Assembly (NCBI RefSeq): GCF_000003605.2
Contig: NW_003119430.1
Location: 152,104 to 216,103, forward strand
Direction: 5' to 3'
DNA length: 64,000 nucleotides
Source: Saccoglossus kowalevskii
Taxonomy: Eukaryota > Hemichordata > Enteropneusta > Harrimaniidae
This document shows, one piece after another, positions 14,917-47,571 of the stretch. Positions within the stretch are counted from its first letter, which is position 1; each line of letters opens with the position of its first letter. A program made the translations under genes and the position numbers. Below the pieces are notes generated by a model that made no database searches, was not told where the DNA came from, and worked only from the letters and a program-made list of their open reading frames with translations.

Positions 14917-15791
14917 TTAATCGTAATAATCGTCATTCTCGTTATAGAGGAATCTTTTCTTTGGGTCTTCATATCCATTATCTTCGTCGTCGTCAATATA
15001 TTGATCGTCCTGAGCCTCTAGTGCACGTCCCTTGACTCTTCTACGCCTCACACCAAACCTCTAATGAATGAATGAATGAATTTATAAATTTATGGAATAT
15101 AATTTTTAGAATATATTTAATTGAAAATTGAATATAATGTTTGAAGCATTGTAATAATTGTAATTAATCAAAAATAGTTATCAAATAACGTGGTTATTCA
15201 TATTATATTATAGCAAAAACTAATACAGCACACAACACTTTTTACTTGTAACCGTTGTAAAATAAAAATGAACCAGCATACAGCGATTATAGATACATCG
15301 CACCCGGATTTCAGCGTTTTCGTAGTTTATTATAGTATTACACACGATTTGAGCATTGATAACACATTCAGGTTCACTAATGAGACGCTGCAGAGGGCAA
15401 TATTTGTTGGCGTCGTTCAGCAAACGAATATTATTTATTTGCAATTTCTTAAAAGATTTTATCCTACTGTACGTTATTCACGATTGAAACATAAACACCG
15501 GAAACCGTGATATATCGTCTTTTTAAATACAGGTTACATAATTAAAAACACGCTCTGGACGACGTAATCGGGCAACTGAAATGCCGGTTAATATAATACA
15601 ATGTTTGATTGCACGGAGTGTAGCGCTTTAAAGTGAAAATAAATATCCAGCCGCGGATTGTTAAGCACAGGGAAATGTACAAGTGACGGAACACAAAACT
15701 TACAAATACTTACACTAGCCGCTTCAAATGTACATAACTCCGCCAAAAGAATCCCAATAACGAGGAAGAAAATAAGTAGTTTGCTGTTCAT
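14917..15791 (-). CDS. Small secreted basic/acidic peptide precursor, gene A (spliced, 73 aa)
   Basis: Coding exons are 15714-15791 (26 codons from ATG) and 14917-15060 (47 codons plus TAA). The intron 15061-15713 has a GTAAGT donor and a TTAG acceptor in phase 0. The first exon encodes a signal peptide (MNSKLLIFFLVIG and so on, ending FEAAS). The second encodes a 47-residue product that starts RFGVRRRRVKGR, with seven basic residues in twelve. An acidic stretch follows (IDDDED), then a basic triplet KKR before FLYNENDDYYD. There are no cysteines. An acceptor TTTCAG at 15805 just upstream of the ATG shows a 5'UTR intron. The start was chosen because the longer upstream frame begins at a non-ATG codon inside that intron. 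Paralogues C, D and E have identical segment lengths. I do not recognise the family. A host-defence or signalling peptide precursor is possible by layout only. Confidence 0.8.
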
Positions 15792-16802
15792 TGTGGAAAT
15801 TGTTCTGAAATACAAAACAATTAATTAAGGATTATATTTGTAATACTGTGATAACAGGAATAGCAGTAAGGCCACCACAACTTACATGACATGTTATCCA
15901 GGATATACTTATATTCCCGAAAACCCAAGAATTATTTGGACGTTTGTTTTTACCACTAAGGATGTATTCAAAAAGAGATAAATAGTATATAAACCAGTCC
16001 ATGCAAACCGATTTGCCGCATTGTTTTCATGGCTAAATTCTATAGGAAAATTGGCTCGTATGTAGAGAAACGCGCAGTATCGAGGTGTATACCCGCCTTG
16101 TAATTTGGTTAACACCTGTATTAGTAACACATAAAGTGTGAGTATTACATGAAATAGTTATCGTATCCCTGCGAACATGTTAACGGGAATTAACAGCTAT
16201 TTTCAGGGCCGAGGTCTGATGAAAGTTCGACGACTTTTACCCCATCAAAGTTGTCGTACGATAATGAAGTTATACAGAAAATTGACGAGCTTTAAATGTA
16301 TTTTTTCCGCAGGTTGTGTACTATCAAAACATACATGTGTCACGTAACTTATTTTGTATGGAAGAACAATAAGCGAATGACAGGACCAGACAAAGACACC
16401 TGTATTATCTCACCTGATACATATATGTATTATAGTGAACTACATAATGTATTCAACCACCAATCTCTTTACCCAGCATTTGGATTATATTGGAACACAC
16501 ACTTTTATGAAAACACTCCACTTAATATTACATGCAGTCAGTTTTCAACAAAGAAACAGTTCCTTCCTAGTAAATGAGAATTGCTCAGAACAACGAAATC
16601 AGTAAACGCGGTCTGTTTTGAACAACAATGAGCATTGTTCTAGTAAATGCTGACACAGGATGCGGAACTAGAACTGTCGATATCAAAAGTTAGCACCATA
16701 CTTAGAACAATGAAGCAGGAAACAAAGTGTATTATGAGTTGCGTTTAACGCATTAATATATTATACATATAGCCTAATCAAATATCACATATAGCTGCTT
16801 AC

Positions 16803-16861
16803 CTGTGTATACGCCTTGTTCAGAATTAAGATGCCCTGTATTGATCGAAGTGCTATATATA
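16803..16861 (-). promoter_or_regulatory. Candidate promoter and noncoding exon 1 of gene A
   Basis: On the minus strand a TATATATAG box begins at 16861. A CA initiator-like start lies about 29 bases below at 16832. A 30-base putative exon ends at 16803 in CACAG followed by a GTAAGC donor. This would splice to the acceptor before 15804, an intron of about 1 kb. The arrangement parallels the TATA, start, short exon and donor order of genes C, D and E. In unit B the same place survives but its donor reads TTAAGC. Confidence 0.5.
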
Positions 16862-16995
16862 CATTTCTTTTCAGTACTGATAAAGTGATTGATCTCCTTA
16901 TCAATAATCTTGACTCATCGGCAATTGATTTTGAAAACATTGACTGATTGTTACTTTAGATAGAAACATTGTGATTCATGTGAAAGAGATTCAAG

Positions 16996-17137
16996 TTTTA
17001 ATTAAAATGCAAAATAGTGAAATACCTTGGAAGAAGACTTTGTTAATTGGTAATGATGCACAATATTCATGTGACAAACTTGAACATGATGCATTAGATG
17101 TAATCTATTTCACTCATCTGTACACGTGTGGAATACC
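16996..17137. other. Block unusually conserved between units A and B
   Basis: This stretch matches 23055-23196 with only a few substitutions, while flanking duplicated sequence is much more diverged. In unit A it lies in an open frame containing MQNSEIPWKKTLLIGNDAQY. In unit B a single-base insertion breaks that frame soon after LIGN. It could be a lost coding exon, an enhancer of the peptide gene, or chance. I do not recognise the peptide. Confidence 0.4.
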
Positions 17138-17680
17138 GAATCATACACACTACCTATTATCAATCAACTCGGTTTCCTTGGAAATAGTTTTTGAAAATAT
17201 GAACAGAATAATTATATTTTTCGTAGTCTTTCGAACTAAGACAACAAGTAAGTTTAGTCCACATTATGTTTTCAAAGGTGGAATAGAATGAAATACATAC
17301 ATCGGCATACATTGAGTTCGAACCTCATTTGTTTGCACTTAAAATTATTTTCTGCTTAGAAACATCAAAACTAATGATATGATAAATTAATAATGATGCT
17401 AATAAATTATTGTGGGCAAGAAAGTAGCAGGCATTTCACAAGCACTGTTAAAGTGACTAAGCATGCTACTATGATATCGTATACATTTTCTGGAAGCTTA
17501 TATATGAGCAAAGATAGATTAACTTACGGTTATTTCGATATTGTGTTTTTGTGACTACTCTAACTATTGATTGTAAGTGGAATGTGACAGATATAGAAAA
17601 ACCGAGACGCGGTCGTTCATCAACAACGTTACGAACAGTCATGTGCAATCGCCAGGTAATTAGCGTTACTGAAAATGATA

Positions 17681-18864
17681 AGCCACCATATTTTCAATTG
17701 CGATCAGATCACATTTCAGATTAATACTTGAGATTTGGGTGGTAGTGCTCCGCTGTCTGTTGAAAACTTGACAACAAAATATCGACGTTGGAAGCACTTT
17801 TAACTGGAAATGTCATTTTCGCCAAGGAATTACCTAATTTCGAAGTAACAGTTAATGTCTATAAGGCAGGGAGTTTTATAGCTCGTGTATGAACGATGTA
17901 ACTTAATACCCCCGAAATAAATTGTGTGTTCATCGATATTGATACTTTTTGATACACCAGAATGCCACAGTGTGCCCTATTAAGTTTATTTTATTGTAAG
18001 CTTCGCGTTAAAAAGAACCCATTCTGGGTGATCAATTTTGGATAAACTGACCCGTGCCCATTCCTACAATATACTGGAATGTATTGTCGCTATTTTTGCT
18101 GAAGGAATGATTCAGTAAAAATAAAATACTGTGAATATACCCTTTATTTCTATAATTGACATTCAACTCATCAAAATCACTGACATGTAAATTCTGTACA
18201 AAACACACAATACACCTTTTCAGCGAAAATTATTTCCAGCTGAATTAAAGTATTTACAGTATCTGCTTATTGAGCACAACAAACTCAAATATCTGCTAAC
18301 ACATATATGTAATGAATATTCATCTATTCATTGAATTATGAAATATCAGCCACTATAAAGTATATTGCCGATAATCTATTGCTGCTCATTTTTTTATCGA
18401 CGCGCGCTTTTTATTTTCATTCTTGAACTTGTATCATGTTCACTCACTATGTAGATTGTAGTTGAATGTCGCACTTGTATATATAGATCTGATGTACTTC
18501 TCAAATGGACTCACCGTTTAGAATTTTCTGACATATACACCATGTTCAGATTTAACATGATTCATAATTATGTCACTTATTTTTCAGACTTCATTTGAAG
18601 CAAATGAATAAAAAGGCTTATGTTGCCTACGTTAGGATTAATATATAGTTTACCATGGCGACTAAGATTGTCTTTTAACAAGTCATGTTGATGTGCATCA
18701 TGAAATTCATTTTGGCGGTCAAAATAAAGCGAGGATAATTGGGAAAAGTTAGTTACTCGTAATTAAGAGATTTCCTCTCATTGATGGTCTTCGCAACAAT
18801 ATTTGTTACATATATGCTGCAAGATAAATCCGCAGCCCTTTTGACGATAAATATCTGTATTCAG
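17681..18864. other. Spacer between duplication units A and B
   Basis: AT-rich unique sequence. No frame, RNA gene or repeat could be supported here. Confidence 0.5.
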
Positions 18865-20331
18865 TCCTGATATTCATGGCACGTAATTTTATGCATGGCA
18901 GCCTGAAACAAGGGCACTCGACGCTATTGTTGTTTTCACGTAATCTGTCACACGAGATACACAAGAAGTGCTCTTGAAATACACTTGTATGTATCATAGA
19001 GTAGATTCCCCTGGCTAATAAAGATGACACTATTACGTATTGTTTAATTCAACTCTGGCTTCGAGGCATTTGGCGTATTAGTTATTAATAAAAAATTCTT
19101 TATCATTTACAGACAAAAGTATTGTTGTTAATGCAATCTGAAAAAAAAATATTCTTAAAAGTTTCATCATTGCTCTGATAATTCAATGTAAATTTCATAT
19201 ATTTCGCAAATCAATATACAGAAAAAAAGATAATAAGTTTACACACATAAACGGAATCACAAGCGCTACCTACACACACTCTTCCTGTGCATACAAAACT
19301 GCAAAGTATCTACCAGGCAGACAATGCAAAAAACGCCCTCAATCCAAATTATCGCAATCCAGAAACGAAAACGACAAACCCAAGAAAACAAAACAGCAGA
19401 CAATAGATATAACGAGTTACAAAAAACATTTCAAAACCTGAACCAAGGGTGCATAATGTTCAATATTTTATTCCACTATTTGAAACAACGATTTCTGGAT
19501 ATGCATATTCAAAAGTGTCTAGATTAGTTTAATCAAAACTCTTAATATAGTAAATATATAAATTTATATTGGGACATGATAAGTACATTACAGTAGTTTA
19601 AAATGTGGCATGAAAGCATGCTTATGTCATTTTTAGAATACCAGCCTACAATTAGAGAATGTAAACTTATAATAACTAAATATTGATAGAACTGATACAA
19701 TTTGTATATTTTGTACCGGTAAACAAGTTGAAGATGAATTTAATTTTTGTCTGGTATTGTTATTTTATAGAGAGCTGCCATGTCAATATATCGCCAGGTT
19801 CTTTACTATACAACCAACAAAATATACATTTACATTGCGTGTCACTTCAAACTGTCAAACAGTAATAAATACAGTCAGTTTGTTATCCATTCAGTCAGTC
19901 ATACAGTAATACAGTCAGTCAGTTGTTAGCCGACATAATAGGCGCAGAAAAGATTACCTCCACCCACGCCATATATGGTATTCGTCGTCCGCGAACCGCG
20001 AACAATATAGTCTAACAACTCACCTGCGCCCTCACACGCAACTGTATTTCGTAACAAATTTATCACCCGCACATAGAGGGCGATACAGGAAAATGAAAAT
20101 ATCCAAAATCATTTCCAGCAATGAAATCACAGTGTGCCCGTCATTGTACATGTATTATGTAGAGGGCGATTCTTTGCTTGGTGTGAAGATTTCAGCTCAC
20201 TAAATCTAAGAATAACAATTTGGTTGGGTTTTTGCTCACAATGTAGTATGCTTCACTATTTCTCAAACGCCCAAGCAGTATTGATATGTGTACATTAATT
20301 TACATTTGTGTGACTGGTAACAGACATATAA

Positions 20332-20349
20332 ATATAATATATATATACA

Positions 20350-20421
<72 letters not shown>

Positions 20422-20838
20422 NNNNNNNNNNNNNNNNNNNNNNNNNNNNNNNNNNNNNNNNNNNNNNNNNNNNNNNNNNNNNNNNNNNNNNNNNNNNNNN
20501 NNNNNNNNNNNNNNNNNNNNNNNNNNNNNNNNNNNNNNNNNNNNNNNNNNNNNNNNNNNNNNNNNNNNNNNNNNNNNNNNNNNNNNNNNNNNNNNNNNNN
20601 NNNNNNNNNNNNNNNNNNNNNNNNNNNNNNNNNNNNNNNNNNNNNNNNNNNNNNNNNNNNNNNNNNNNNNNNNNNNNNNNNNNNNNNNNNNNNNNNNNNN
20701 NNNNNNNNNNNNNNNNNNNNNNNNNNNNNNNNNNNNNNNNNNNNNNNNNNNNNNNNNNNNNNNNNNNNNNNNNNNNNNNNNNNNNNNNNNNNNNNNNNNN
20801 NNNNNNNNNNNNNNNNNNNNNNNNNNNNNNNNNNNNNN

Positions 20839-20932
<94 letters not shown>

Positions 20933-20939
20933 TATATAT
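20332..20939. repeat. (TA)n microsatellite enclosing an assembly gap
   Basis: Alternating TA runs lie on both sides of N positions 20422-20838. The gap is almost certainly unresolved TA repeat. The apparent long frames through it are poly-Ile/Tyr artefacts. Confidence 0.9.
20422..20838. other. Assembly gap (417 N)
   Basis: A run of N inside the TA repeat. Confidence 1.
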
Positions 20940-21815
20940 AATATAGTGTTCATTATTCAGCACTGGGACAAACTACTAGGATACGACATTGTACTCAATA
21001 AAAATACAAACTAGTGCCATCAAATTTATTTGTGGGACGAAACTCAAAAGAAAAATAGTTTTTGGTTATACTAATTCCGATGCACATAAGCTTCCTAGAA
21101 TTATTCAAAAAGCAGAAGAGATAATTAGAACGTTATTGTTCACCTCACAGATGAACGTCAACAAATAACACATTATAAAGTTAGCGGCATGGAAACATTT
21201 AACATTTACTTAATTTAATTTTTACTATATATTTTCGTAAATAATTTCAGTCATTTGTTTGCTTAAAGAGTTAAATTCAGATGTTAAAATCATAAATGGC
21301 GTTCATCATAACATCGAAACTTATTTTATGGGACAAATTTTAGTCGAGGACTAACTTTACAACTACAAATGCATGATTTATTTTTTGTGATGACTAAACT
21401 CACTTACTAAACTCCTACCAACAGTTAGATTCCGCGCGAACTTTGTTTTGTTTTCTGAAATGCACTTGAAGCGAGCACAGTTTGCATCAAATACGCGAAA
21501 TATGCTTGTATTACTGTTTTGCTCTATGATATGGTCGAACCCCGATATCGTTAAATTAGGTATCTGATCATTTCATATTTTCAAAGTATGTTTCATACAA
21601 GATAAATTAGAAGTTATTATTGACGAATATTATCTTGCACACACAAGATGATATAGCGTGCATAGGGCTGCTCTATGCATATATTACTATACGACACGCA
21701 TCATAACATCAACACAATTACAGCGACACATAACCCATTGATTATGGTATATTTTATTCAAACATTGCATATACTTTTGATATACTTAATACTCAATTAT
21801 TTGCTTAAGCTTGAT

Positions 21816-22892
21816 TTAATCGTAATAATCGTCATTCTCTTAATCTCCGTCGTCGTCAATATATTGATCGTCATGATCCTCTAGTGCACTTCCTTGTGAT
21901 TGCCTATTATACGCCTCAAACCATACCTCGAATTAATGAATGCATGAATGAATGAACGTTGTATTCAATATAATTCCAATGAGATGTGTATACCGCATAT
22001 AAAAGGAATAACTGACCGCAGTAGTGAATATATACCACTGAATTTTGACCTCTTTTGTTTTAAATATAGTTATTAGGCACAAAAATGACATCAAGGCACT
22101 CAAAATATGTGATACAGCACCCGAAACATGTTATTTGCAATCGCTCTGAAACTAGCATACAGATATATCGAATGGTAGCTGCGACACTGCGACACTGCGA
22201 CAATCATTTATTAGCGTCGTTTGCGTAATTTGGAAAATAATATTTGTTTGTGATTGTAGTTGACAGAAGAATTAAATCCTACTGTGTGTTACTCGCGATT
22301 GGGACTTAAACACTGGAAACCGTAGTATAACGTCCTCTTTACCACAACAGTATTTCCGAAATCCCACTCTTTTTTTAATTTGCTGCATTACATCACATAT
22401 CAACTGTTAGATCATTTAATACAATCACCATGCAATCACACAGTTAGTCGATTTAGAAATCGTTGTTTCGAATCGAGGATGTTGCTGCTAAAACAAATGT
22501 TCTATATTTAAATAGTAAGGGGAGAAATCACATGAAAACAAACTCGTTTATAGAACACTCCGCTTAATAGTAAATGCGGACAGTTTTCAACACAAAAATG
22601 TATTTTCTCGTCAATGGGCATTGTTAAGAACAAAAAAAGAGTACCTTCGATAAGTACAATGCTTATCTGAAATAAGCATCATATTTAGAAACAATATTAA
22701 TTAACACGATACAAAAAGTAGTAAAAATTGCGTTACCATACATAAATTAGGTTAATATATCGTAAATATTATATTCTGAACTAATATTCTGCTCTGATAT
22801 AATAAAATAAATATAATAAAACTGTTCAAGGAATATACTACATCGTATATCGATGCTTAACTGTGTATAGACCCTGTTTTTCAAAATCAAGA
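21816..22892 (-). pseudogene. Decayed copy of the peptide gene, copy B
   Basis: The last exon survives at 21816-21928 with clear similarity to gene A. It begins RYGLRR on the minus strand and ends in the shared code for NDDYYD. A net five-base insertion shifts the frame into a stop after about fifteen codons. A roughly 36-base segment covering the NGYEDPKKRFLYN region is deleted. No signal-peptide exon exists between 22340 and 22540, where unit A has about 760 extra bases. The first-exon remnant (22861-22892) has its donor GT changed to TT. Four independent lesions make this a pseudogene. Confidence 0.75.
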
Positions 22893-23870
22893 TGTACTGT
22901 ATTGATTGAGGTTCTATATATGCATGTCTTTACTGTACTGAAATGGAAAGGTGGTTAATCTTCTTATCAGTCATCTTGACTCATCAGCAGTTGTTTTTTG
23001 AAGAAATTACCCAATTCGGATAAAATCATTGAGATCCAAGTTAAAAGGTTGCGGTTTTAATTAAAATGCAAAATAGTGAAATGCCTTGGAAGAAGACTTC
23101 ATTAATTGGTAATTGATGCACAATATTCATGTGACAAACTTGAACATGATGCATTAGATGTAATTTATTTCACTCTTCTGTGCACATGTGACATACCTAG
23201 CCACACACTACTTATTATCAATCAACTCGGTGTCCTTTGGAATTGTTGTTATGGATTATTTTTTAAGTTCGTTTGAACTATAATAATACAGTTTTAGTCC
23301 ACAGACAGTTACACGCAGTCTAATATGAAAAGATATATATGAATGATTTCATATACATATTGTTGAGTGTAAGACAGAACATTGGTACATTATGACCAAT
23401 ATTGAAAGATGGAAAAATCATATGACCCTGCAAAATCAGATTTGTTACATGAGTGTTGTAATATAACACTGCTTCACAGCTTTGAGGTGGCAACAGCGAG
23501 TAAAAATCATCCGTGATTCACACATTTTTTAAACGTTACTAAGCATGCTGCTATGCTAACGTATATATTACTTGAAAGCTAATATACGCTAATATAGACT
23601 ACCTTACGGTTATTTTGTGCATTTGTGACTAATCCGATCGTTCGAACAGTGACCAGGTCACGTTAGTGACTTGCCTATGCACTCCTAGCCGCATAATTAC
23701 GAAATTAATGAACATAATAAAATATTTTGGCAACTACACCAATTAGATTCATAATAATTTTCAGTCTATATCTTTTGTTTAGGGATACATGCTGCTATAG
23801 ATATTTCTTTACAGGTTATACAGGTTATTCTTCAGTTATACGCTATTCAATCGATATTTGTTTTTTTTAG

Positions 23871-24284
23871 TTCAGGATATATTTTGAATAAATGAACACA
23901 ATGTTCATTTAAAATCATTTGACAATTGTAGAATTTGTTTACAATTGTTACTAATGTAATATTATATACACGGTATTAAAATTATATATCAGTAGTTTAG
24001 TCAAATGGCAATTTAGTCTGTCCAGTATATTCAGATATTATTCAGCAAGCGGATGCGCTCTGCTATAGTTATATTGGCGTGATTCAGAGTGAAAACAAAT
24101 GTACACAACGTATAGACTGACAATTTATTGAGGGCAGCATACCAACACATTTGGCATTCCTATTATATCCAATTATATATTGTATATTTCCTTTTAGAAT
24201 TGTGGTTCTAAACCAGATGGTGAATCACTTGATCAAGACAGACTAGATTACGATAATGCTGAAGGCAAATCAGTTCACGATTAA
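23871..24284 (+). pseudogene. Divergent relative of the peptide gene, copy F (last exon open, start broken or missing)
   Basis: After a CTTTTAG acceptor, 24198-24284 encodes NCGSKPDGESLDQDRLDYDN followed by AEGKSVHD and TAA. The DQ-R--YDNAE core matches DQERREYDNAE of gene C, and G3 and K5 align with YSGPK. The RRSKGR basic block is missing, the tail is shorter and a cysteine is present. AATAAA follows the stop at 24327. Upstream, a TTTTTTTTAG acceptor at 23861-23870 and ATGAACACA at 23892 recall the start of exon 2, but a stop follows after six codons. Either F is a pseudogene or its signal exon lies elsewhere and is not recognised. Confidence 0.5.
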
Positions 24285-25987
24285 GACGAAATGTATTGAT
24301 ATTGCCCATATTACAAACACAACATTAATAAATATTTAATTATATGCTTGTGCACAAATATTTGCAAATATTGAGAATACATTACTATACAGTTCTATTT
24401 CAGGAACCCAAAATTCGTATGATTTCTGGAAAAACAGTAGTCATTTGATCTGCAAAACCCATTATTTGTTAATCTGCTCGTTATGTTTATAATTATATCT
24501 CTGATAAACATATCATATACACAAATGTTTAACATGTTTTTCTTCATTTTTCTTTCTACAATCCATAACACATCACCCTTGTACATTAATATTGAAATTT
24601 TCAACAAACACAAATGCTCATATAAACTTTCATATCCAGAACCAACAAGCACATACCCATATATATTTAAAATACAAGTAGTGTTACCTCTCTTATAGCG
24701 TATGATAATATAACATTCAATAAATTTATAACACGATTAATGTTTTCACATTCTCGGTGGCGAAGGCCAGATACCTAACTGTTTCATAGACAATATACTA
24801 ATAGTGATTTTTGTGATAAATAGCAAACACAATTATTCAATGCCAAAATAATTTCTCAAGATTAGGCTACTCTAATCACATGTACAGGTTTGATTACAGA
24901 TATACACAGATACTTCCAATTCGGCAACTAGCATCCTCCTTTCATCAGCATAGGCTGTGTGACTGCCTAATAAAATTAAATCATTCATGAACGAGTGGTT
25001 TCTCATCTCTCATTTTAAAGAAATACAAAGCTTGGTAAGTGAGATGTAGGTTGTTATTTTTAAAACTTCTTGTTGTCAAGATGAAATTACTATAAGAAGT
25101 CAGCCCTATCAGAAAAACTCGCCGGGTGGCGCGGATATTTCCAGCGGTTCACTGACAGTGTTTTGTGTTTCACACACGAAGTGAAATTGAACGGAATCAA
25201 CGCAAGCAGTGAATTGTATTGACAGCGAGTGTGCCTGTGTGTGACATTTTAAGAGTTATCGGACGATGTGTAGTGAACAAATTGTTCATACATTAATTAT
25301 ACTTGTTTGAATACTCAATTATTACCATTAACTTGTACACATATTCAAAAAAATTAAAATCTGAACAAATCTTAGGCCCAAACAAGGTATACGATGTCAA
25401 AGAATTCGAAAATGTAATACTTTATGCCAAGACGACAGACAATCAGTGTCGACATGGAGCTTAACAAATCTGTTATCTTTCATCTGCACAACATGTTTAT
25501 ATTTGACAGGGTTTTTTTCAAATATAAATCTGAGACATAATTGCTAATTGTATACTCCGACTTAAAATATGTAATAATATTATGTGAATGTAAATTATTT
25601 GACTGAATCTTGAGAAGAGATTCTATCTGGAGGGAGAACAACTACAAAACCTTTAAACCGAAACGTAAATCCAGAGCGTTTTCCTCATAATATCTTTATA
25701 TATTTAGAACTGTTTACTGCCTTTTTATATAATTAATATGATTCATCACGAGTTTTAATGCGTATAACTGTTAATATGCATTGGCTGGTACTCGAAGTAT
25801 CGTTAATATGATGTCCAATTGACCCATTTAATTTAATTTATTGCATTGCATTGTCATTTATATTTCGACCGAATAAATCATTTTCCAATACATTTCATTA
25901 TGCACGGATTACATTCCTGTTATATTCATCTGGATATTTGCGTTATTTAAGAAAACGATTAATTGAAATTGTGTCACTTTATTTTCT

Positions 25988-26060
25988 TATATAAACCGTG
26001 TATTAAACGAAACAGTCATCACTTCGGGAATTGCTACGCCAAAAACTCATATCTTTAATT
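25988..26060 (+). promoter_or_regulatory. TATA promoter and noncoding exon 1 of gene C
   Basis: TATATAAA at 25988 is followed 30 bases later by a TCATCAC initiator (predicted start A at 26018). A 43-base exon ends at 26060 before GTAAGTATT. The same spacing and exon length recur exactly in copies D and E. The 3' partner is the TTTTTTTCAG acceptor ending at 26252. Confidence 0.7.
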
Positions 26061-26287
26061 GTAAGTATTACAAATACGTTTATTATCTGCATATGTCCCT
26101 ATATATAGTATATAGTTCACATAATAATTCGACAACGTCTGTGTTCAAGTTCACAGTTAATATACAAATATATTAATTTTATTATTACTCTATGAAGTTC
26201 TAGTTATTTTTTTTTTCCATTTGCTATAATTGTCAAATGATGTTTTTTTCAGTACCATTATTTTGAGCTTTACAAGTACGAAACAAC

Positions 26288-26878
26288 ATGAACGGCAGAA
26301 TCTTATTTCTTATTTGTGTGATTGGAATACTAATTTCAGAAACATTCACTATCGAAGCAACATCAGTAAGTACATGTTATGTGTCTCATTAAATGTGCAA
26401 ACGGATGGTTTTTGCCTTGAATAAGAAATATATGTCTAATTTGAGCATCGATAATAATACACCATTAATGTTTAATGCCAGGTGGACGCAAATATTTGTA
26501 TGTATCCAACTCCCAACAATTGTATGTATGTAATGTAAGTTCAAGTTAACATGCTGCATGTATTCAACAATTTTTAAATCGATAACAATTCCATAACTTA
26601 ATTTTAGTTTGACATTATCTATATTGTGAACTAAATAAATAAGTGGATGACTGACTGACTGACATTACATTCACTATTAAATCACGTGATACAACATATT
26701 AAAATCTTAATGCTATGTTCATTTTATTCTATAGTACAGTGGACCCAAACATAGACGTAGCAAAGGACGCTCGTTTGATCTGAATCAGCTTGGCGATTCA
26801 AACGATCAAGAAAGACGAGAATATGATAATGCTGAGCGAAGATTTGCTCAAGATGAAGACAACCATCAATTCGATTAG
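26288..26878 (+). CDS. Small secreted basic/acidic peptide precursor, gene C (spliced, 73 aa)
   Basis: Coding exons are 26288-26365 and 26735-26878. The 369-base intron has a GTAAGT donor and a CTATAG acceptor in phase 0. Exon one gives a 26-residue signal peptide (MNGRILFLICVIGILIS, ending EATS) with small residues at -3 and -1. The 47-residue remainder starts YSGPKHRRSKGR and continues through an acidic, glutamine- and asparagine-rich part. It contains YDNAERRF and ends NHQFD. RR pairs at mature positions 27-28 and 35-36 could be processing sites. The ATG is the first after the 5'UTR acceptor. No canonical AATAAA is evident near the stop. The mature product is identical to that of gene E. 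Function is unknown. An antimicrobial-type or hormone-type precursor is conceivable. Confidence 0.85.
26648..26663 (+). repeat. (TGAC)n microsatellite in the gene C intron
   Basis: About four TGAC units lie in the coding intron of gene C. The equivalent in gene D (about 30335-30365) is longer and in gene E it is almost gone, so it is a length-variable intronic repeat. Confidence 0.8.
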
Positions 26879-27639
26879 TTGCGAACGCCCTATTATTTGT
26901 CATAGTACCACGGACGTTTGTGGTATTAATGATATGTTTATACATAATGTGACATTGAGAAATTAACTTATGGTGACTAAGTTTTTATTTGTGAATATAT
27001 AATTGCAAATAATCAGAATATATTGTTTATATACCATTCGTTTGTTTTATTTCTGTGCAATATGAGCTCCTCCTCCGTATTTCCCCCTTCATATGTTATG
27101 CGTATGCAAAGCATGGCCAGTGTCGTGTTATATAAAAATAGGCAACGAGGGCGTGGAATATATCGCGTTGCCAGTTTTACTATCGTAATTCAGTACGATG
27201 AGACTGAACCAGCATTTGACGTCAGTGTTTACTAGTGGGAATCTTGAGAGTCTGTCTCAAGTTTTGTGCGACACGTTATTGTGGCATCAATAACATTGTT
27301 CTTCCACCGGGGATAGTTGCTAAGAAACAAAAGTATAAATAAGAGTCAAAGTCCAGATTTGCACCCGCTTTGTCCAATATTCAGGAAATCTAGTGAGACC
27401 ACATGTTCCTATTGACTGGTGTCAAGCTGACATCACTCTTTTGTCCAAAAAGTGTTCTAAAGACAGGGCTAGCAACTATTTGTGATTATGCAATCGATTA
27501 CGTACAGCAGGCTATTTGGATCCCTACAATCTCCTTTGTGATTCACGACATGGGCTTCGTCCTGGGAAGTCTTGTCTCACAAATCTACTTCAGAATGTGA
27601 CCAAATTCATTAATTCTGGTTTTGCTGTGGATGGCCACT

Positions 27640-27945
27640 GTTCAGTTTTCTTTGATTGAGACTTAACTTTGTTTTTTTATTTTCATTAATGATTTTGAGT
27701 CAAATAAAATACCAATGCTTTGCATTTGTGCTGATGACACTTAGGTCCTAGGCTAAATAAAAATAATGATGGTGAGTTAGCAGTTTTACAACATGTAGAT
27801 GGTCTGCAGACTGACAAATGTTATGTAACACACATAGTTTTGCGTTTTGGTCACACAATTAACATGGTGAGCACAACCTTGGCAGTGTAGTATCATGACA
27901 TGCAACTAAATAAAAGTGGGTGTCATTATAACTGAGGACTTTTTT
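27640..27945 (+). mobile_element. Non-LTR retrotransposon reverse transcriptase remnant (unit C)
   Basis: One frame reads FINDFES, then about a dozen residues later CADDT followed by a stop and VLG, then ELAVLQHVDGLQTDKCYVT. This is the order of reverse-transcriptase blocks around the FADD catalytic box in LINE-type elements. Stops show it is dead. Upstream sequence from about 27400 is shared by all three units and may be more of the same element, but I cannot prove that. Confidence 0.65.
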
Positions 27946-28049
27946 AAACAAATAGCTTCTTTGGTCAACCTGTTTGTGACAACTGCACAACATCGCTAAA
28001 TGTTTGTCATGTTCAGCATATACTCAATGTTGTGAATTATGGTTCCTTA

Positions 28050-28572
28050 AGCCCCTTTCACAATTGGTGCCAAACAGACTACAACGGCTTGCGACTCGAA
28101 ATTTTTCCCGTTGTACGACTCGTTGTAGCCGTTGTACCACTTATTGTACGATCCAGATGCGACAAAATGGTCGCATCTCGGTCGGGAAAAAAACCGTGCT
28201 GCTCCGATATTTTGAGCGACTGACGCGATGAAAAATAATTGCACGACAGGCAGTACGAGTGTTGTGCGACTTTGCACGCCCTCGTAAGACCCCGAACGAG
28301 TGTTGCACGAGTATTTTCATGTCGTACGATGATGCGTCCTGTCGTACGAGTCCGTTGTACCACCCTAAGACTATTGGAAGACCTGTCTTGCCCCCTTTGC
28401 AACGTTGTACGATTTTTTTTCACCCCCAATATAAGCTCGAGAACTCCTGAGCTTTCATCCCAAATACGTACGATTTTATATATTGCTTGCGACTCAAAGA
28501 CAACACTTCTACAACAGGACGGAACAAATATTTTCGGAAGGCGCGAGTGAGGCGCCAATTGTGAAAGGGGCT
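28050..28572. mobile_element. MITE with TTA target duplication, PIF/Harbinger-like
   Basis: The element is bounded by perfect inverted repeats beginning AGCCCCTTTCACAATTGG and closing with the complement. TTA flanks both ends (28047-28049 and 28573-28575), the three-base target duplication typical of PIF/Harbinger transposons. It is 523 bases long, more GC-rich than its surroundings, and packed with GTCGTACGA and CGTTGTACGA motifs in both orientations. Overlapping frames up to 159 codons are by-products of this composition. It encodes no transposase and sits in the spacer between units C and D. Confidence 0.75.
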
Positions 28573-29633
28573 TTAATATTTCATCAAAAAAGAACTATCC
28601 AATATTTCTAAGCGAAGATGTCGATACATCATGGAATATTTGCATATACATGTATTAACTTATAAACAAACAGGGTTAAGCTGAAACAAAACCCTTGTTT
28701 CAGTTAGCCATGTTAAGTAAATGTTCGATCGGGATATACTATGCACTATCGTGATCTTGGATCATTGAATACAGAATGACTCCATTCATTTCTATTACTG
28801 AAATAGTGAAAATGAACTAGATAAACACACCAGTGCCATCATCACTCTGACAGATTGTTACAAGTCTATACAATTTGCTCTCTATTCAATTAACATTTAG
28901 TCGTACACATATTCAAAAACAAAACAAAAAAAACGTTAATCTGAACAAATCTTAGGCCCAGCCAAGGTATACGATATCAAATAAATTGGGATAGCGGTCT
29001 TCAAAAAAAAGTCGAAAATGCACATATTTATGGCAAGATGACAGTCATTCAGTGAGATAAGCTCCTCTCGACTTGGTCAACATGTTTATGATTCACAGTT
29101 TTTCAAATATAAATCTTAGACATGCTTAATTATATACTTTGACTTAACAGATGTAATAATATTATGTAATTGTAAATTATTTGACTGAATGTTCAGAAGA
29201 GATTTTATCTGGAGGAAAAAACGATTGTCTAGTAAGTCGTCAACAACACATTAAACACATCGGCTTGAGTCTGCACTGATTCAAACTAAAAAACCTTTAA
29301 AAGCAAACGTAAATACGGTGTTTCGTATTCCTCATAATATCTTCATACATCTAGAACTGTTTACTCTCTATCATTACACATTGTGCAATTCATCACGTGT
29401 TTTTATACGTATAACTGTTAATATGCGTTGGCTGGAACTCGAAGTATCGTTAATATGATGTCCAATTGACCCATTTAATTTAATTTATTGCATTGCATTG
29501 TCATTTATATTTCGACCGAATAAATCATTTTCCAATACATTTGCTAATGCACGGATTACATTCCTGTTATATCCATCTAGATATTTGCTTTACTTTAAAG
29601 AAAGATTCTTTGAATTATGTCACTTTATTTTCT

Positions 29634-29706
29634 TATATAAGCCGTGTATTATACGAAACAGTCATCACTTCGGGGATCACTACGCCGACAACTAATATCT
29701 TTAATT
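29634..29706 (+). promoter_or_regulatory. TATA promoter and noncoding exon 1 of gene D
   Basis: TATATAAG at 29634 lies 30 bases from the TCATCAC start (29664). The 43-base exon ends before GTAAGTATT at 29707. The acceptor TTTTTTTCAG ends at 29942. Confidence 0.7.
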
Positions 29707-29977
29707 GTAAGTATTACACATATGTTTTTTATCTGCATATGTTCCTATATATAGCATACCTTATAGACTGTTGGTATAATAATTCCACAGCATCTGTGTT
29801 CAAGTTCAGAGCAATTAATCTAAATACAAATATCATATTAGTTGCATGTCGTGATACTAAAAATATAACATTTTATTATTACTCGATATATTCCTAGTTA
29901 TTGTTTCCATTTGCTATAATTGTCAAATGATGTTTTTTTCAGTACCATTATTTTGAGCTTTACAAGTACGAAACAAC

Positions 29978-30581
29978 ATGAACGGCAGAATTCTAGCTCT
30001 TATTTGTGTGATTGGAATACTAATTTCGGAAACATTCACTGTCGAAGCAACATCAGTAAGTACATGTTATGTGTCTCATTAAATGTGCAAACGGATGATT
30101 GTTGCCTTGAATAGGAAATGTATGTCTAATTTGAGCATCGATAATTTTAAAATAATAGACCATTAATATTTAGTGTCTCGTGGACTCAAAAGTTCATATG
30201 TATCAAAATCCCAAATTGTATGTAAAGAACTTGAAGAATATAATTTCAAGCTAACTTACTGCACGTATTCCAGAACTTGGCAACTTTAGTTTAACATCAT
30301 CTATATTTTGAACTAACTGAATAAATAAAGTAGATGACAGACTGACTGACTGACTGACTGACTGACATTACATTCACTATTAAATCACGTGATACACAAT
30401 ATCAAAATTCTAATGCTATGTTTCTTGTATTCTATAGTACATTGGACCCAAACATAGACGTACCATAGGACGCTCGCCTGACCTGAATCAGCTTGGCGAT
30501 TCACATGATCAAGAAAGTCGGGAGTACGATATTGCTGAGCGAAGATTTGCTCAAGATGACGACAACCATAAATTCGATTAG
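29978..30581 (+). CDS. Small secreted basic/acidic peptide precursor, gene D (spliced, 73 aa)
   Basis: Coding exons are 29978-30055 and 30438-30581. The intron of 382 bases has GTAAGT and CTATAG ends and is phase 0. The signal peptide differs from gene C at two positions (F7A, I22V). The mature part starts YIGPKHRRTIGRSPDLNQLG and keeps REYD, AERRFAQD and the FD end. It differs from genes C and E at nine of 47 residues, including loss of one lysine in the basic block (K10I). Length, exon phase and promoter are unchanged, so it is likely functional but diverging. Confidence 0.85.
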
Positions 30582-30803
30582 TTGAGAAAGACGTATTTAG
30601 TGTCATGATACCCCGAACGTTTCTGGTATCATTAACAGTTTCATACATAATGTGACATCGAGTAATTAACTTATGGTGACTGAGATTTTGTTTGTGAATA
30701 TATGATTGCAAATAATAAGGATATATTGTTATATAGCATTCGTTTTTTTTTCTGTGCAATATGAGCTCCTCCTCCGTATGTTCACCTTCATATGTATGTA
30801 TGC

Positions 30804-30957
30804 GTATGCAAAGCATGGCCAGTGTCGTGTTATATAAAAATAGGCAACGAGGATGTGGAATATCGCGTTGTCCACACTCTTTCTATTGTAATTCAGTGTA
30901 TGCAAATCGTATGCAAATTATAACCAGTGCCGTGCTATATGAAAATAGGCAACGAGG
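30804..30957 (+). repeat. Imperfect internal tandem duplication downstream of gene D
   Basis: A segment of about 49 bases containing GTATGCAAA, CCAGTG and ATAGGCAACGAGG occurs at 30804-30852 and again at 30909-30957. Unit C has one copy near 27105 and unit E has one diverged copy near 34980. The duplication is therefore specific to D. Confidence 0.65.
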
Positions 30958-31439
30958 ACAATCGACGGAATACTTGTAATTCAGTACGATGAGAGTGAAC
31001 AATTATTTGACGCCAGTGTTTGCTAGTAAAATCTTGAGAGTGTGTCTTAACTTCAGGTTTTGTATGACGCCGTTGTGGCATCAATAACATTATTCTTCCA
31101 CCGGGGATAGTTGCTAAGAAACGAAAGTATAAATAAGAGTCACAGTCCAGATGCCCCCACCTGTTCCTATTGACTGGTGACAAGCTGACACCACTCATTT
31201 GTCCAAAAAGTGTTGATTACGTACAGCAGGATATTTGGGTCCCAATAATCTCCTTTGTGATTCACGACATGTGTTTTATACTGGGAGGTTTTGTCTCACA
31301 AATCTACTTCAGAATGTGACCAAATTCATTAATTCTGGTTTTGCTGTCGATGCCTATCTGCGTTTTCAAAAGTTGTTGACAATGAACTACATGTTTGCTT
31401 ATGTCGTAAACTCAATGCTCATGGTATAAATGTCTACTG

Positions 31440-32250
31440 CTCATTTTTCTTTTTTATTGAAGCTTAGCTTTGTTTATAATTTTCATTATTGATTTTGAGT
31501 CAAATATAATACCAATGGTTTCCATTTGTGCCGATGACACTTAGGTCTTAGGCTAAGTAAATAATTATCGAGAGTTAGCAGTTTTACAAAATGTAGATGG
31601 TCTGCAGACTGATAAATGTTATGTAACAAGCATAGTTTTGCGTTTTGGTGGCACAATCAACATGGTGAGCACAACCTTGGCAGTGTAGTATCATGATGCA
31701 ACTAAAAACATATGTGTGTCATTATCACTGCGGACTTTGAGCAGGGATACACTACCCTAGGAATATTGCGTTCAACTCTGATTATCATAACTTAGGAAGG
31801 CCATTGACGATAAAAACAAAGTGTAAAGGGGCACAATACAGATGATATGTGATCTGCATAATCTGAGTTATGAAGAAAGAATTAAAAAATGAGTTTGTCT
31901 ACATTAGATAGGCGTTGCAGACGTGGGAGCTGATTGTAGTCTTAAAATTCTATTATAAGCAGTGCAGAAGACTTTAGCTGAGAAGGATTTTTAGTCAGAA
32001 TATTTTGAATGATTGACAGTGTGCAAAGTACAAAGACAGTGCTTGAATTTTGAAAAAGAATTGATAAATGTATTTGTTTAATGACCTAAATGAATCAGTA
32101 TAAGTAAAAAATGGCGACTGGTTTCATTAAACTACGTACTGGCAAACCAACTTCTGCATAGGTTTGTCTCTAAACGCATGCTTTTCGGTTCATTTAGTCA
32201 TCTTTTTTGTACTTTTGTACTGCCCTTAAAACCTAATATTACATACATAA
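31440..32250 (+). mobile_element. Non-LTR retrotransposon 3' remnant (unit D and beyond)
   Basis: It carries the same INDFES and ADDT-stop region as unit C (about 31480-31640). Past the end of the C/D homology a further conserved LINE segment follows: CDLHNLSYEERIKK, then a GVADVGAD-like stretch and a LDKYL-like tail. This is the order of the thumb and C-terminal region in non-LTR ORF2 proteins (SYEERLKRLGLPSLEYRRxRGD in typical elements). In-frame stops and shifts show it is inactive. Confidence 0.6.
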
Positions 32251-32259
32251 AAATCTGTT

Positions 32260-34032
32260 GAGATTTCACGTTTTCCCTGTAAAAGGAACGCTGGTTGCTC
32301 CCTCTCTGGACTCCCTCCCCGCGTATACTAGTACTACCAACTCATACTACGTCCTCACGTGGTGACGCATGTCAAGCTATAAATGGCCATCAATACTCAT
32401 TTCGCCCAATCTCTCACTTTTATCGCATTTTAATCAACCGTATATGCTTAATTTCCGACCAAAAAACGACCATGTTTTATCCCTTTTTACTCACTCGCTT
32501 ATTAAAAACACTGACCGCTTGTCCAAACACTGAACACTGGCACATGAGTTGTCGAAATGGTTGTTTTAGTGCTAAAGTTTGAGGATTCGACGATTATTAA
32601 CCATTATTTAATTCCGAACGACACTTCCAATCCATCACACTTTTTATAGTTCGCAACGCAACTTAAACTATGATCTTATGTTACGTGAATGTTCCACAAC
32701 AAGCTGATAGAGCGGGACTGTGTACCGTTTGAATCCAGAGCTGCTACCTCATTTCAACAATATGATTATCGAAACATTTACGTGATAAAGGCAATGCTAA
32801 CTTCTTAAGGCAGAAAGCAGAGAAAGCAGGAAAATATTAATGTATTTTCCGCCCCCAAAAAAACAAAAAAAAAGATGCCATGGCCATGTATTTAAAATTC
32901 CAGCTAGCAGACGGGCGATATTTCTGGGTTCGCGCGGTCGAAAAATAAAGCGGAAATTATTCATCAAGCGGTTGTAAAATAAATGATCGAAAAGCAGAAG
33001 CGAGCAGAGATTGGGTGAAATTAGTGCTCTGCATTCAGGTCCTTTGTAAAAAATACAATCGGCCAAGATCTATCATTCTGAAGCACACCAAAGACAGAAA
33101 AAATGCAGTTTTGCATATTGACACCGCTCGTATTTTTTAAATGAGCCAAAACAAAACAAAAATGTTATGCTGCTTAAGCGAAGATCGATCGAAACAGACT
33201 CGTTTTGTAACTTTTAACGGCTACGTTATGTTGAAGATATCCAATTTCACTATTTGAGTTATCACCGAAGATAATGTACGAGATATTAAAAATCGGAAAA
33301 AGCAAAAAACAACAACAATTGGTTATGTGAAATTGATTAGCATTTATGTAGTCCAATCAGTACTGTTCTGTTGTATCTCGTCAACGGAAAGTTACAACCC
33401 GGACCTGCTCGATGATTATTATTGCAAATGTAATTTCTTTCTCCCAGATCAATGAATCCAGAATAAATTGGGTACGTTATTTTAGAATGATTTTCATTTA
33501 GTTTAACGTGATAAATAGTCTGATTTATCATATAGCATTACAAACAAAAGTCCTCGGAATGGGTCAGAGTACTAGTATACCCCAGACCACTCGTTTTGAT
33601 GAATGGTCTTGGTGTGGCTTGAGGATAAGAATAGAAAATGGATTCCGATGAGATTCCCCTTCCCCTTGGAAGAGTTGTATCCAGAAATTTTCATACGTTT
33701 GTGACAATTTTATGTATTATTAAAATTGCCCCCCCCCCCGGGGGGGATTCCACACAGCAATTTAACTAGTAATGCTGTTTGAATTATTAAAAATAGTTCA
33801 TCCGTCATTCCCTGTTCGTTTTTGCACAGAAATAAATCACTGATAATCAAAATTGATGAGCCCCAGTTTTGAAAGCCATACATAAACCAACACATTAAAA
33901 ATGGTTTTAAACATATCAAATTTGCTTACAGTAAATATATCAACAGATATGTAAAGGTGTAAAATACTGGTCCTTCGATGTTTTTCCTTCAAACCTCCAC
34001 AACTCATGCACAGCCACTATACACACTCCGTC
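32260..34032. other. Spacer between the unit D retrotransposon remnant and unit E
   Basis: AT-rich, no gene recognised. It includes a C11G7 homopolymer junction at 33729-33746, which may be an assembly weak point. Confidence 0.5.
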
Positions 34033-34175
34033 NNNNNNNNNNNNNNNNNNNNNNNNNNNNNNNNNNNNNNNNNNNNNNNNNNNNNNNNNNNNNNNNNNNN
34101 NNNNNNNNNNNNNNNNNNNNNNNNNNNNNNNNNNNNNNNNNNNNNNNNNNNNNNNNNNNNNNNNNNNNNNNNNNN
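34033..34175. other. Assembly gap (143 N)
   Basis: A run of N. It lies just outside the recognisable end of unit E. Confidence 1.
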
Positions 34176-34261
34176 TTGATAATACAATATTTGTTGAGAT
34201 AGTCATTAATAATCTGGAGGCTCTAATACTCTCAATAAATGGAACAAATAAGAGATGTGCG

Positions 34262-34470
34262 ACCAAAAGGCAAAACTGTGCGTGTTACATAACATTTGTC
34301 AGTCTGCAGACTATCTACATGTTGTGAGACTGTTAACTCTCGGTCAGTATTCACTTAGCCTAAGACCGAAGTGCCATCAGCAAAAATGGAAAGCATTGGT
34401 ATTATATTTGACTTAAAATCACTAATGAAAATTAAAAACAAAGCTAAGCTTTAATCAAAGAAAACTGAAC
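34262..34470 (-). mobile_element. Non-LTR reverse transcriptase remnant (unit E)
   Basis: The minus strand reads SIFADGTSVLG where units C and D read CICADDT-stop-VLG, so the ancestral box was FADDTSVLG. It occupies the same position relative to the peptide gene as in units C and D, showing that the element was already present before the duplications. Confidence 0.6.
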
Positions 34471-35244
34471 AGTAGACATAAGCAAACGTGTAGTACATTG
34501 TCAACAACTTTTGAAAGCCCAGATAAGCATCCACAGCAAAACCAGAATTAATAAATTTGGACACATTCTTAAGTAGATTTGTGAGACAAGGCCTCCCAGG
34601 ACGAAGCCCATGTAGGAGATTGTAGGGACACAAATAGCCTGCTGTACGTAATCGATTGCATAATCAATAGTTGATAGCCCTGTCTTTAGAACACTTTTTG
34701 GTCAATAGAGAGATATCAGCTTGACACCAGTCAATGGGAACAGGGAGTCTCACTAAATTTCCTGAATATTGGACAAAGTGGGTGCATCTGGACTCTTATT
34801 TATACTTTCGTTTCTTAGCAACTAGCCCCGGAGTTATTGATGTCACAATAACGTGCCACACAAAACTTGAGGTTAAAACGCACTCTCAAGATTCTCACTA
34901 GTAAACACTAGTTCAGGCTCATCGTACTGAATTACAATAAAAAATGTGTAGGCAACGCGATATTTCACACCCTCGATGTCTAGTTTTATATAGCACGACG
35001 CTGGTTATACTTTTCATACGCTCACGTACATATGAAGGGGAACACACGGAGGAGGGGCTCATATTCCACCCTAGTAAAACAAACGAATGATATATAACAA
35101 TATAATATGATCATTTGCAATTATATATTCTCAAATAAAATCTTAGTCACCATAAGTTAATTTCTAGATGTCACATTATGTATGAACATTTCATTAATAC
35201 CACAAACGTTCGTGGTACTATGACAAATAATACGGCGTTCGCAA

Positions 35245-35846
35245 CTAATCGAACTGGTGGTTGTCTTCATCTTGAGCAAATCTTCGCTCAGCATTATCGT
35301 ATTCCCGTCTTTCTTGATCGTTTGAATCGCCAAGCTGATTCAGATCAAACGAGCGTCCTTTGCTACGTCTATGTTTGGGTCCACTGTACTATAGAATAAA
35401 ATGAACATAGCATTAGGATTTTGATATTGTGTAGCACGTGATTTAATAGTGAATGTCAGCCAGTCTGTCACCTACTTACTTATTTAGTTGAAAATATAGA
35501 TGACGTAAAACTAAAATTAACAAGGTATGAAAAGGTTATCGATTTAAAAATTTGGGAATTTATGCAGTATGTTAACTTGAAATTATATACTTCAAGTTCA
35601 AATAAACTATATACAATTTGGGAGTTGGATACATACGAACTTTTGCCATGTGGCAGTAAACATTAATGTTCTATTTCAAATATCGATGCTCAAATTAGAC
35701 ATATATTTCTTATTCAAGGCAAAAACCATCCGTTTGCACATTTAATGAGACACATAATATGTACTTACTGATGTTGCTTCGACAGTGAATGTTTCTGAAA
35801 TTAGTATTCCAATCACACAAATAAGAAATAAGATTCTGCCGTTCAT
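35245..35846 (-). CDS. Small secreted basic/acidic peptide precursor, gene E (spliced, 73 aa)
   Basis: Coding exons are 35769-35846 and 35245-35388. The 380-base intron has GTAAGT and CTATAG ends and is phase 0. The signal peptide is that of gene C with I22V. The 47-residue mature part is identical in protein to gene C, although four bases of the exon differ, all silently. The intron and flanks differ more, with indels. This is what purifying selection on a functional peptide would give. The 5'UTR exon boundary at 35881 follows a TTTTTTCAG acceptor. Confidence 0.85.
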
Positions 35847-36071
35847 GTTGTTTCGTACTTGCAAAGCTCAAAATAATGGTACTGAAAAAAAGAAACATCA
35901 TTTGACAATTATAGCAAATGGACACAATAACTAGAACGTCTTAGAGTAATACTAAAATTAATATCGCTCTGAACTTGAATACAGATGATGTCGAACTATT
36001 GTGTCAACAGTCTATAAAATATACTATATATAGGAACATATGCAGATAATAAACGTATTTGCAATACGTAC

Positions 36072-36144
36072 AATTGAAGATGTGAGTTGTCAGCGTAGTA
36101 ATCCCCGAGGTGATGACTGTTTCGTTTTATACACGGTTTATATA
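36072..36144 (-). promoter_or_regulatory. TATA promoter and noncoding exon 1 of gene E
   Basis: On the minus strand TATATAAA starts at 36144 and the TCATCAC start is at 36114, again 30 bases away. The 43-base exon ends at 36072. The donor is GTACGT rather than the GTAAGT of genes C and D, which may weaken splicing. Confidence 0.7.
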
Positions 36145-46464: not shown

Positions 46465-47571
46465 TCAAGTATTAGAAGGCGTGGATGTTACGTTCGAGAC
46501 CAGTGTGTTTGGTTTAGTAGAGTTATGAGTATTAGAACGTTGTGATGTACCGGCACTTGGGACTACTTGTGTGCTTGTGTTGAATGATGGAAATAAACGC
46601 ACAAACTCTTTTCTAAAGTTCTCATTGAAATACGCGTACAGAATGGGATTGATCCAACTGTTGCAGCAGAAAATGAAAAATGTTATGTTAAGTGGAACGG
46701 TAGAATAAAGAAGAGGAATGGGTGGTATGTCTGAGCTATACTTATAGTACATCTGTAAACAATGGTAGGGTGCCCACGTGACCATGAATTGTACAACCAC
46801 AAAGCTTAACATCTTAAGAGCTTTCTTTTTGCTACGTGTAGTCGAATTAGTTGGACTTTTGCCAAACCATAATGTTGTTATCATTATAGAGTACAGGATC
46901 ACTAATACCACGAGAGGTATAAGATAAAACACAATTAGGTCGATCAGCCGAATGTAGGTTTCTAAATCAATTTGATCATAAAGTACACCGCATTTGTATT
47001 CAATTGCAGTGTTGTTGCCGGGAGAGGAATATTTGGGGTTTAATCCCATAAAAATAAGTGGACCAATAGAGTACAATAATGATATAGCCCAAACAATACC
47101 ACATCCAATGAAAGCATGTTCCACGGTCACTCGTGGTCGCAGGGGTTGCACAATAGCTCGGTAACGATCGGCGCCGATGCATATCAGAGACAGCGTGGTA
47201 CCACAAAGGGAGCAACTTTGCAAGTAACCTACGATTTTGCAGAGAACGACATTGTGCAAAGAACTGAAATAACCCCACACCGCAACGTGTTGCGGGACAG
47301 TAACAAGTCCAACGAGAATATCAGAAACTGAAAGTGAAACTATAAATATATTTGTCGCTGATTCCCGTAGTTTAGGTTGGCGGACAACAGCAATAATCAC
47401 CCACACATTTCCACAGAGAATCATCAGTACGAATATAATTCCAAATATTAGAACAAATTCTTTGGGAGTGTCAAGAGCGTAGACTTTTATCCAGAATTCT
47501 TTTGTTTGAAGCGGGTCGACTTCAACGTCTTCTGTACCTACGGACGTAGTATATTCCTGTGTTGCTTCCAT
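46465..47571 (-). CDS. Rhodopsin-class G-protein-coupled receptor, peptide-receptor-like (368 aa)
   Basis: A single coding exon encodes a seven-helix receptor. Visible hallmarks are GN at 54-55 in helix 1, LSVSD with D84 in helix 2, C111 and C194 for the extracellular disulphide, and DRY at 135-137. W161 marks helix 4, P219 helix 5, TWAPY at 265-269 takes the place of the usual CWxP in helix 6, and NPILY at 308-312 is in helix 7. FRKEF begins helix 8. The tail is rich in Ser, Thr and Asn. N186 is a glycosylation site in loop 2. The ATG is preceded in frame by TGA nine bases upstream. A TTTGCAG acceptor ends about 35 bases upstream of the ATG, so a 5'UTR intron is likely. The ADRYRAIVQPL and AYFNENFRKEF signatures recall QRFP/NPFF/SIFamide-type receptors. 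The ligand cannot be assigned. Confidence 0.93.
   Translation of the reverse strand: MEATQEYTTSVGTEDVEVDPLQTKEFWIKVYALDTPKEFVLIFGIIFVLMILCGNVWVIIAVVRQPKLRESATNIFIVSLSVSDILVGLVTVPQHVAVWGYFSSLHNVVLCKIVGYLQSCSLCGTTLSLICIGADRYRAIVQPLRPRVTVEHAFIGCGIVWAISLLYSIGPLIFMGLNPKYSSPGNNTAIEYKCGVLYDQIDLETYIRLIDLIVFYLIPLVVLVILYSIMITTLWFGKSPTNSTTRSKKKALKMLSFVVVQFMVTWAPYHCLQMYYKYSSDIPPIPLLYSTVPLNITFFIFCCNSWINPILYAYFNENFRKEFVRLFPSFNTSTQVVPSAGTSQRSNTHNSTKPNTLVSNVTSTPSNT

Follow-up and report, generated by a model that had tools for sequence, protein, structure and literature searches.

What is encoded by the cluster of short two-exon frames found in the genome of the acorn worm Saccoglossus kowalevskii, and are they genes at all? 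The stretch analysed here (the window) is 64,000 nucleotides long, and all coordinates below are positions in it. Four two-exon coding sequences, A, C, D and E, are open in the frames read in the window, each with 73 codons and a stop, and we consider it very probable that they are real secreted-peptide genes. They share one precursor build, in which a 26-codon signal-like exon (78 bases) is parted by a phase-0 intron from a 47-codon cysteine-free exon (144 bases including the stop). The coding introns, 369 to 653 bases long and bounded by GT...AG, sit at an identical position and phase and carry GTAAGT directly after exon 1. A sequence-only reading of this DNA had proposed that A, C, D and E are intact 73-residue precursors with a 47-residue cysteine-free product; its coordinates and frames are as it gave them, all four sequences translate to 73 residues and a stop, and the second exon has 47 codons in each. 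From the hydropathy of residues 1-26 and their A-x-S end, we infer that this segment would be a signal cut after A-x-S. The coding exons are the following.

14917..15060, minus strand: gene A, coding exon 2 (47 codons and stop), an open frame with ungapped 13/47 identity to C
15714..15791, minus strand: gene A, coding exon 1 (signal, 26 codons), an open frame with a GTAAGT donor, 13/26 identical to C
26288..26365, plus strand: gene C, coding exon 1 (signal), an open frame
26735..26878, plus strand: gene C, coding exon 2, with 0 non-synonymous and 4 synonymous differences from E
29978..30055, plus strand: gene D, coding exon 1 (signal), an open frame
30438..30581, plus strand: gene D, coding exon 2, 38/47 identical to C, with 10 non-synonymous and 5 synonymous differences
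35245..35388, minus strand: gene E, coding exon 2, an open frame
35769..35846, minus strand: gene E, coding exon 1 (signal), an open frame

Genes C and E, which lie ~9 kb apart in opposite orientations, are maintained as protein-coding genes under protein-level purifying selection, because their non-synonymous divergence is far below that of their coding introns (Fisher p 3.9e-7). The two copies differ at 1 of ~171 non-synonymous sites, at 4 of ~48 synonymous sites and at 44 of 359 aligned positions of the coding intron, with p 0.0087 for non-synonymous versus synonymous sites and 0.63 for synonymous sites versus intron. A second alignment, covering the whole unit, gave 1/78 (1.3%) and 4/144 (2.8%) differences in the two exons and 49/361 (13.6%) in the coding intron. 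The clustered, duplicated family of secreted precursors described in the sequence-only reading is thus borne out, and the comparison of C with E adds direct protein-level constraint to it. Gene D is diverging and is looser than E, since nine of its 47 mature residues differ from those of C.

Gene conversion as the sole cause of the identity between C and E is not favoured, as their synonymous divergence is about that of the intron (4/48 versus 44/359). Weighing toward conversion between the two copies, the 37 bp upstream of the start codon and the 3' untranslated region (UTR), with 12/161 differences, are also less diverged, so the low divergence of C and E is not necessarily all protein constraint. 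The same low divergence outside the coding sequence gives some support to another explanation, in which these are chance frames in non-coding or element-derived DNA, or pseudogenes only, and the presence of four relics in the cluster and the drift of D point the same way. Against this stand the protein-level constraint between C and E and the confinement of the C promoter-exon region: a query of 501 bp from the C 5' region (promoter and first coding exon) matched at least three genomic places among 572 Mb, and all of the listed ones fall within the window. We therefore judge this explanation highly improbable. A dispersed repeat or transposable element was rejected, the listed matches of the C promoter-exon DNA all being within the window, with no many-copy dispersal.

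Gene A is too diverged (saturated) for a substitution test, and what speaks for it is its open frame together with its homology. Judged by its residues, A is a real but old relative of C, D and E that shares ancestry with them. The signal is identical to that of C at 13/26 positions (z 7.2) and the mature part at 13/47 (z 5.7), and in neither case was the observed score reached in any of 50,000 shuffles. The mature score was likewise reached in 0/50,000 when shuffling was confined within residues 1-12 and within residues 13-47; taken separately, the first segment gave p 0.00034 and the second p 0.001 by score and p 0.053 by identity. Chance resemblance between A and C is ruled out by these shuffle tests. 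The sequence-only reading had listed 11 mature positions common to A and C, all of which are indeed shared, and D24 and E26 bring the count to 13 of 47. When the A region was used as a nucleotide query of the window, it returned a tandem copy at ~20-23.6 kb and no match to C, D or E; A accordingly split off long before the duplications that gave rise to C, D and E.

That tandem copy contains relic B, one of four decayed sequences in the cluster.

13055..13132, minus strand: relic G1, an exon-1-like frame interrupted by a stop, with 50% identity to the signal of A across 26 codons, no exon 2 found
21075..21143, minus strand: relic G2, exon-1-like with an in-frame stop, a copy of G1 from the same tandem duplication, E 0.36 and weak alone
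21819..21920, minus strand: relic B, exon-2-like and kin to A, with a premature stop and a stretch lost, tblastn E 3.8e-8 in the window
24219..24287, plus strand: relic F, a partial exon 2 kin to C, tblastn E 2.7e-4 in the window, no exon 1 found

B and F had already been recognised as decayed in the sequence-only reading, and this stands; the exon-1 relics G1 and G2 are additions to that inventory. In the genome search G1 scored only E 1.89. The DNA of the two exon-1 relics is 77% identical over 221 aligned bases. Each half of a tandem duplication (~12.5-17.5 kb and ~20-23.6 kb) carries one of them, a hint that A once had a neighbouring sister gene, now lost. From its sequence, the cluster has the look of a family evolving locally by birth and death. 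The flanks of C, D and E (27150-27850, 30976-31648 and 34263-34963) were co-duplicated with the genes. The first of them weakly matches a single other contig (C4223) at three places, and the evidence suggests that the sequence flanking the three genes is an old low-copy element.

Upstream of the coding exons, genes C, D and E share further features.

25988..25994, plus strand: gene C TATA box, TATATAA, read in the sequence and conserved in D and E
26253..26287, plus strand: end of the gene C 5' UTR, following a predicted intron within the UTR (by eye, GT donor at 26061 and AG acceptor at 26251-26252)
29634..29640, plus strand: gene D TATA box, aligned to C and E
36138..36144, minus strand: gene E TATA box, aligned to C and D

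Over the 31 positions of the TATA region (25980-26010) there are 2 differences between C and D, 1 between C and E and 3 between D and E. By eye, each of the three genes has TATATAA, then a short stretch that looks like an exon and is followed by GTAAGT (by GTACGT in E), and an acceptor close upstream of the start codon, an arrangement that suggests a further, predicted non-coding first exon. The 37 columns ending at the start codon hold 0, 1 and 1 differences among C, D and E.

Is the family confined to this locus? Own-genome searches covered 572,110,611 bases in 4,830 contigs, and the queries (C exon 2, A exon 2, the C 5' region DNA and both signal exons) returned no copies outside the window, although they are short-reaching: A exon 2 found A alone, C exon 2 found C, D and E alone, both relics B and F detected by local tblastn were missed, and members as distant from one another as A and C would escape. 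Local tblastn over 154 kb around the cluster found no further members, the best unassigned match being 13 residues long (E 0.048). A query of 1,001 bases from the A region gave four short matches (~70-100 bases) on other contigs, all of them inside the A intron. Two assembly gaps (runs of N) lie inside the cluster, at 20422-20838, within a long TA repeat, and at 34033-34175, and could hide a further copy.

The sequence-only reading had matched the precursors to no named family, and neither do we. A Pfam scan of A, C and D gave no family, nor did an NCBIfam scan of A and C, whose library is prokaryotic. A profile of all four had one match among solved-structure sequences, which at E 0.9 was taken as chance. 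Six sequence strings of the peptides did not occur in the literature searched, and, judged by titles and the opening of abstracts, none of the papers listed reports antimicrobial peptides of this kind from hemichordates.

What, then, might the peptides do? The precursors are laid out in the order signal, cationic part, acidic part, with no cysteine in the mature part and with charges of +7/-11, +5/-7 and +4/-7. Lys and Arg residues among mature positions 1-12 number 7 in A, 5 in C and E and 4 in D, in agreement with the four to seven basic residues that had been read there. The segregation of charge, tested over any split, gave p 0.00075 for A, 0.027 for C and 0.050 for D, and is weaker evidence than the similarity between A and C. 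The mature part of all four copies has R7-R8, G11-R12, R36 and F37, the residues ahead of F37 being R35-R36 in C, D and E and K34-K35-R36 in A. Convertases are expected to cut at basic sites, and where Gly precedes Arg an amide can result.

We favour the reading that this is a locally expanded, apparently lineage-restricted family of processed secreted peptides with a defence-type role, and we put the probability of the full mechanism at roughly 0.36. Convertase-type cleavage at R7-R8, at R12 and at the basic residues 35-R36 would free a short basic N-terminal peptide and, since G11-R12 occurs in every copy, this peptide may be C-terminally amidated at residue 10. The basic peptides predicted in this way are YSGPKHRRSK for C and E, YIGPKHRRTI for D and RFGVRRRRVK for A, with Lys/Arg charges of +4, +3 and +6, respectively. 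The acidic remainder would keep the basic peptide neutral and soluble until its release, and the freed peptide may then act as a secreted defence-type cationic peptide. In favour of this reading are the constraint between C and E, the exon lengths and intron phase common to A, C, D and E, the conserved TATA region of C, D and E, the charge layout, the four relics and the deep divergence of copies within the cluster, the parallels with mussel and Ciona precursors described below, the expression of PC2 and PAM in S. kowalevskii (PMC10508912), and the result for anionic windows. The last comes from window tests by the limits of PMC7387483; for the cationic helix these used 18-residue windows and three of its limits, on hydrophobicity, moment and charge, and a Ciona control peptide reproduced the values printed in that paper. 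The anionic-window limits hold for the remaining mature part in 18/20 windows of A, 12/20 of C/E and 17/20 of D.

Several results tell against the favoured reading. Between C and D the differences are 13/169 at non-synonymous sites, 8/50 at synonymous sites and 49/344 in the intron; the non-synonymous class gives p 0.10 versus synonymous sites and 0.043 versus the intron, the whole coding sequence (21/222) gives p 0.12 versus the intron, and protein-level constraint between these copies is only suggestive. The signal is better conserved than the mature peptide, but not significantly so (p 0.075 for A-C, 0.31 for C-D). Differences between C and D fall on 3/12 positions of the basic segment and on 6/35 of the others (p 0.67), 2 of the 9 replacements between them strike positions common with A where 2.5 are expected, and the absence of change at the six candidate processing residues has a chance p of 0.26, so that better conservation of these sites than of the rest is not demonstrable. 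The cationic-helix limits of PMC7387483 are satisfied by 0/8 windows of A, 0/8 of C/E and 3/8 of D; hydrophobicity is below 0 in all 16 windows of A and C/E, and the basic segment is short with few hydrophobic residues. The predicted non-coding first exon, finally, carries 7, 10 and 9 differences per 66 positions among C, D and E, about the level of the intron.

Basic sites of this kind also lend themselves to a second explanation, in which the genes encode neuropeptide or hormone precursors and cleavage yields either an amidated basic N-terminal peptide or an 11-residue acidic C-terminal peptide from F37. R7-R8, G11-R12 and R36-F37 are present in all four copies, the small size and the signal fit, and S. 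kowalevskii expresses PC2 and PAM, according to the part of PMC10508912 consulted. Like deuterostome neuropeptide precursors, the acorn worm sequences are short and secreted, carrying dibasic sites and a glycine that may serve amidation, but unlike them they hold a single non-repeated product and form a local gene cluster; neuropeptide genes do not usually form clusters of this kind, with relics and old divergences. No named family matches, and, going by names only, no S. kowalevskii neuropeptide mentioned in the same part of PMC10508912 obviously corresponds. As to the hormone-like layout noted in the sequence-only reading, basic and Gly-Arg sites are shared by all four copies, but their conservation is not statistically above that of the rest. 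We regard a hormone role as unlikely, and on the use of the peptide our bet places a defence-type cationic peptide slightly ahead of a hormone.

A third explanation dispenses with cleavage: the 47-residue bipolar product would act uncut, as, say, a secreted polyelectrolyte in mucus or in the secretions of glands. Between C and E, conservation runs the full length of exon 2 and takes in the acidic part, with 0 differences at ~112 non-synonymous sites and 4 at ~29 synonymous sites, and the absence of a family match in Pfam, NCBIfam and the solved structures suits such a product as well. The chain, though acidic elsewhere, nevertheless holds several clusters of basic residues that resemble cleavage sites, going by what is generally known of convertases, and we hold an uncut product to be as unlikely as a hormone role.

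The favoured defence-type reading has its closest parallels in layout, and the comparisons that follow refer to parts of the cited papers. Myticalins, linear cationic antimicrobial peptides of mussels, have frequent Gly/Arg expected to lead to amidation, an acidic C-terminal extension and a first exon that is 5' UTR only, and they form a multigene family with pseudogenes (PMC5577615); they and the modiocalins, mussel peptides of the same type, lack cysteine (PMC12294457). Compared by layout alone, the acorn worm precursors resemble both in having a signal, a linear cationic segment, Gly/Arg and an acidic extension, and they resemble myticalins in the predicted 5' UTR-only first exon of C, D and E and in the multigene arrangement with decayed copies. 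The exon structure differs, however. In the myticalin gene one exon carries the signal, the mature peptide and the first portion of the acidic extension, and the next intron is in phase 1 (PMC5577615), whereas the phase-0 intron of the acorn worm genes parts signal from mature peptide, so the myticalin-type exon layout is not found here. The basic segment of the acorn worm precursors is also only ~10-12 residues long, with one Gly-Arg, and not Lys-Arg, at its end.

Most Ciona candidates of the Ci-MAM/Ci-PAP kind, from a screen of 50-100-residue proteins with cysteine excluded, run in the order signal, cationic, anionic (PMC7387483), and the acorn worm precursors share this order. The cationic segments of Ciona form amphipathic helices; of the acorn worm sequences, A and C/E fail the helix limits and D passes. 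Basic motifs occur at the boundary in the acorn worm precursors, where the Ciona candidates have none. Botryllin has a 158-residue precursor (PMC9966394). The antimicrobial-like layout proposed in the sequence-only reading thus agrees with PMC5577615 and PMC7387483 in its order, but among the three distinct mature sequences only that of D passes the helix limits.

About 10 kb from gene E, an intact single-exon rhodopsin-type receptor of 368 residues lies at 46465-47571 on the minus strand (Pfam 7tm_1, E 3.8e-48). Among sequences with solved structures, neuropeptide FF receptors and galanin receptor 1 come closest to it, and nothing ties it to the peptide cluster.

The mitochondrial genome in the same assembly, a contig of 17,037 bases (C4830) located through COX1, with its other genes named by eye, bears on the source of the DNA. 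There cox1 runs against most genes, nd6 follows cob on the minus strand and an ND2-like frame comes ahead of nd1. By eye, AAA stands at conserved lysines and ATA at conserved isoleucines; across 11 frames AGA was counted 8 times and AGG never. For S. kowalevskii, PMC3121625 gives AUA as Ile, AAA as Lys, AGA as Ser and no AGG, together with an inverted COX1 and a transposed ND1 or ND2. Among seven rows of its table only the one for S. kowalevskii agrees, so the window comes from this species or a very close relative.

Hemichordates are relatives of echinoderms and close to chordates. It is conceivable, if doubtful, that the acorn worm cluster holds an unnamed, hemichordate-restricted set of amidated basic peptides carried on acidic precursors, a design reached independently of the defence peptides of mussels and ascidians and still being born and lost in one cluster. 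A clustered family under constraint offers four concrete genes for expression and activity work, and perhaps one more origin, in a separate lineage, of a basic peptide carried together with an acidic partner.

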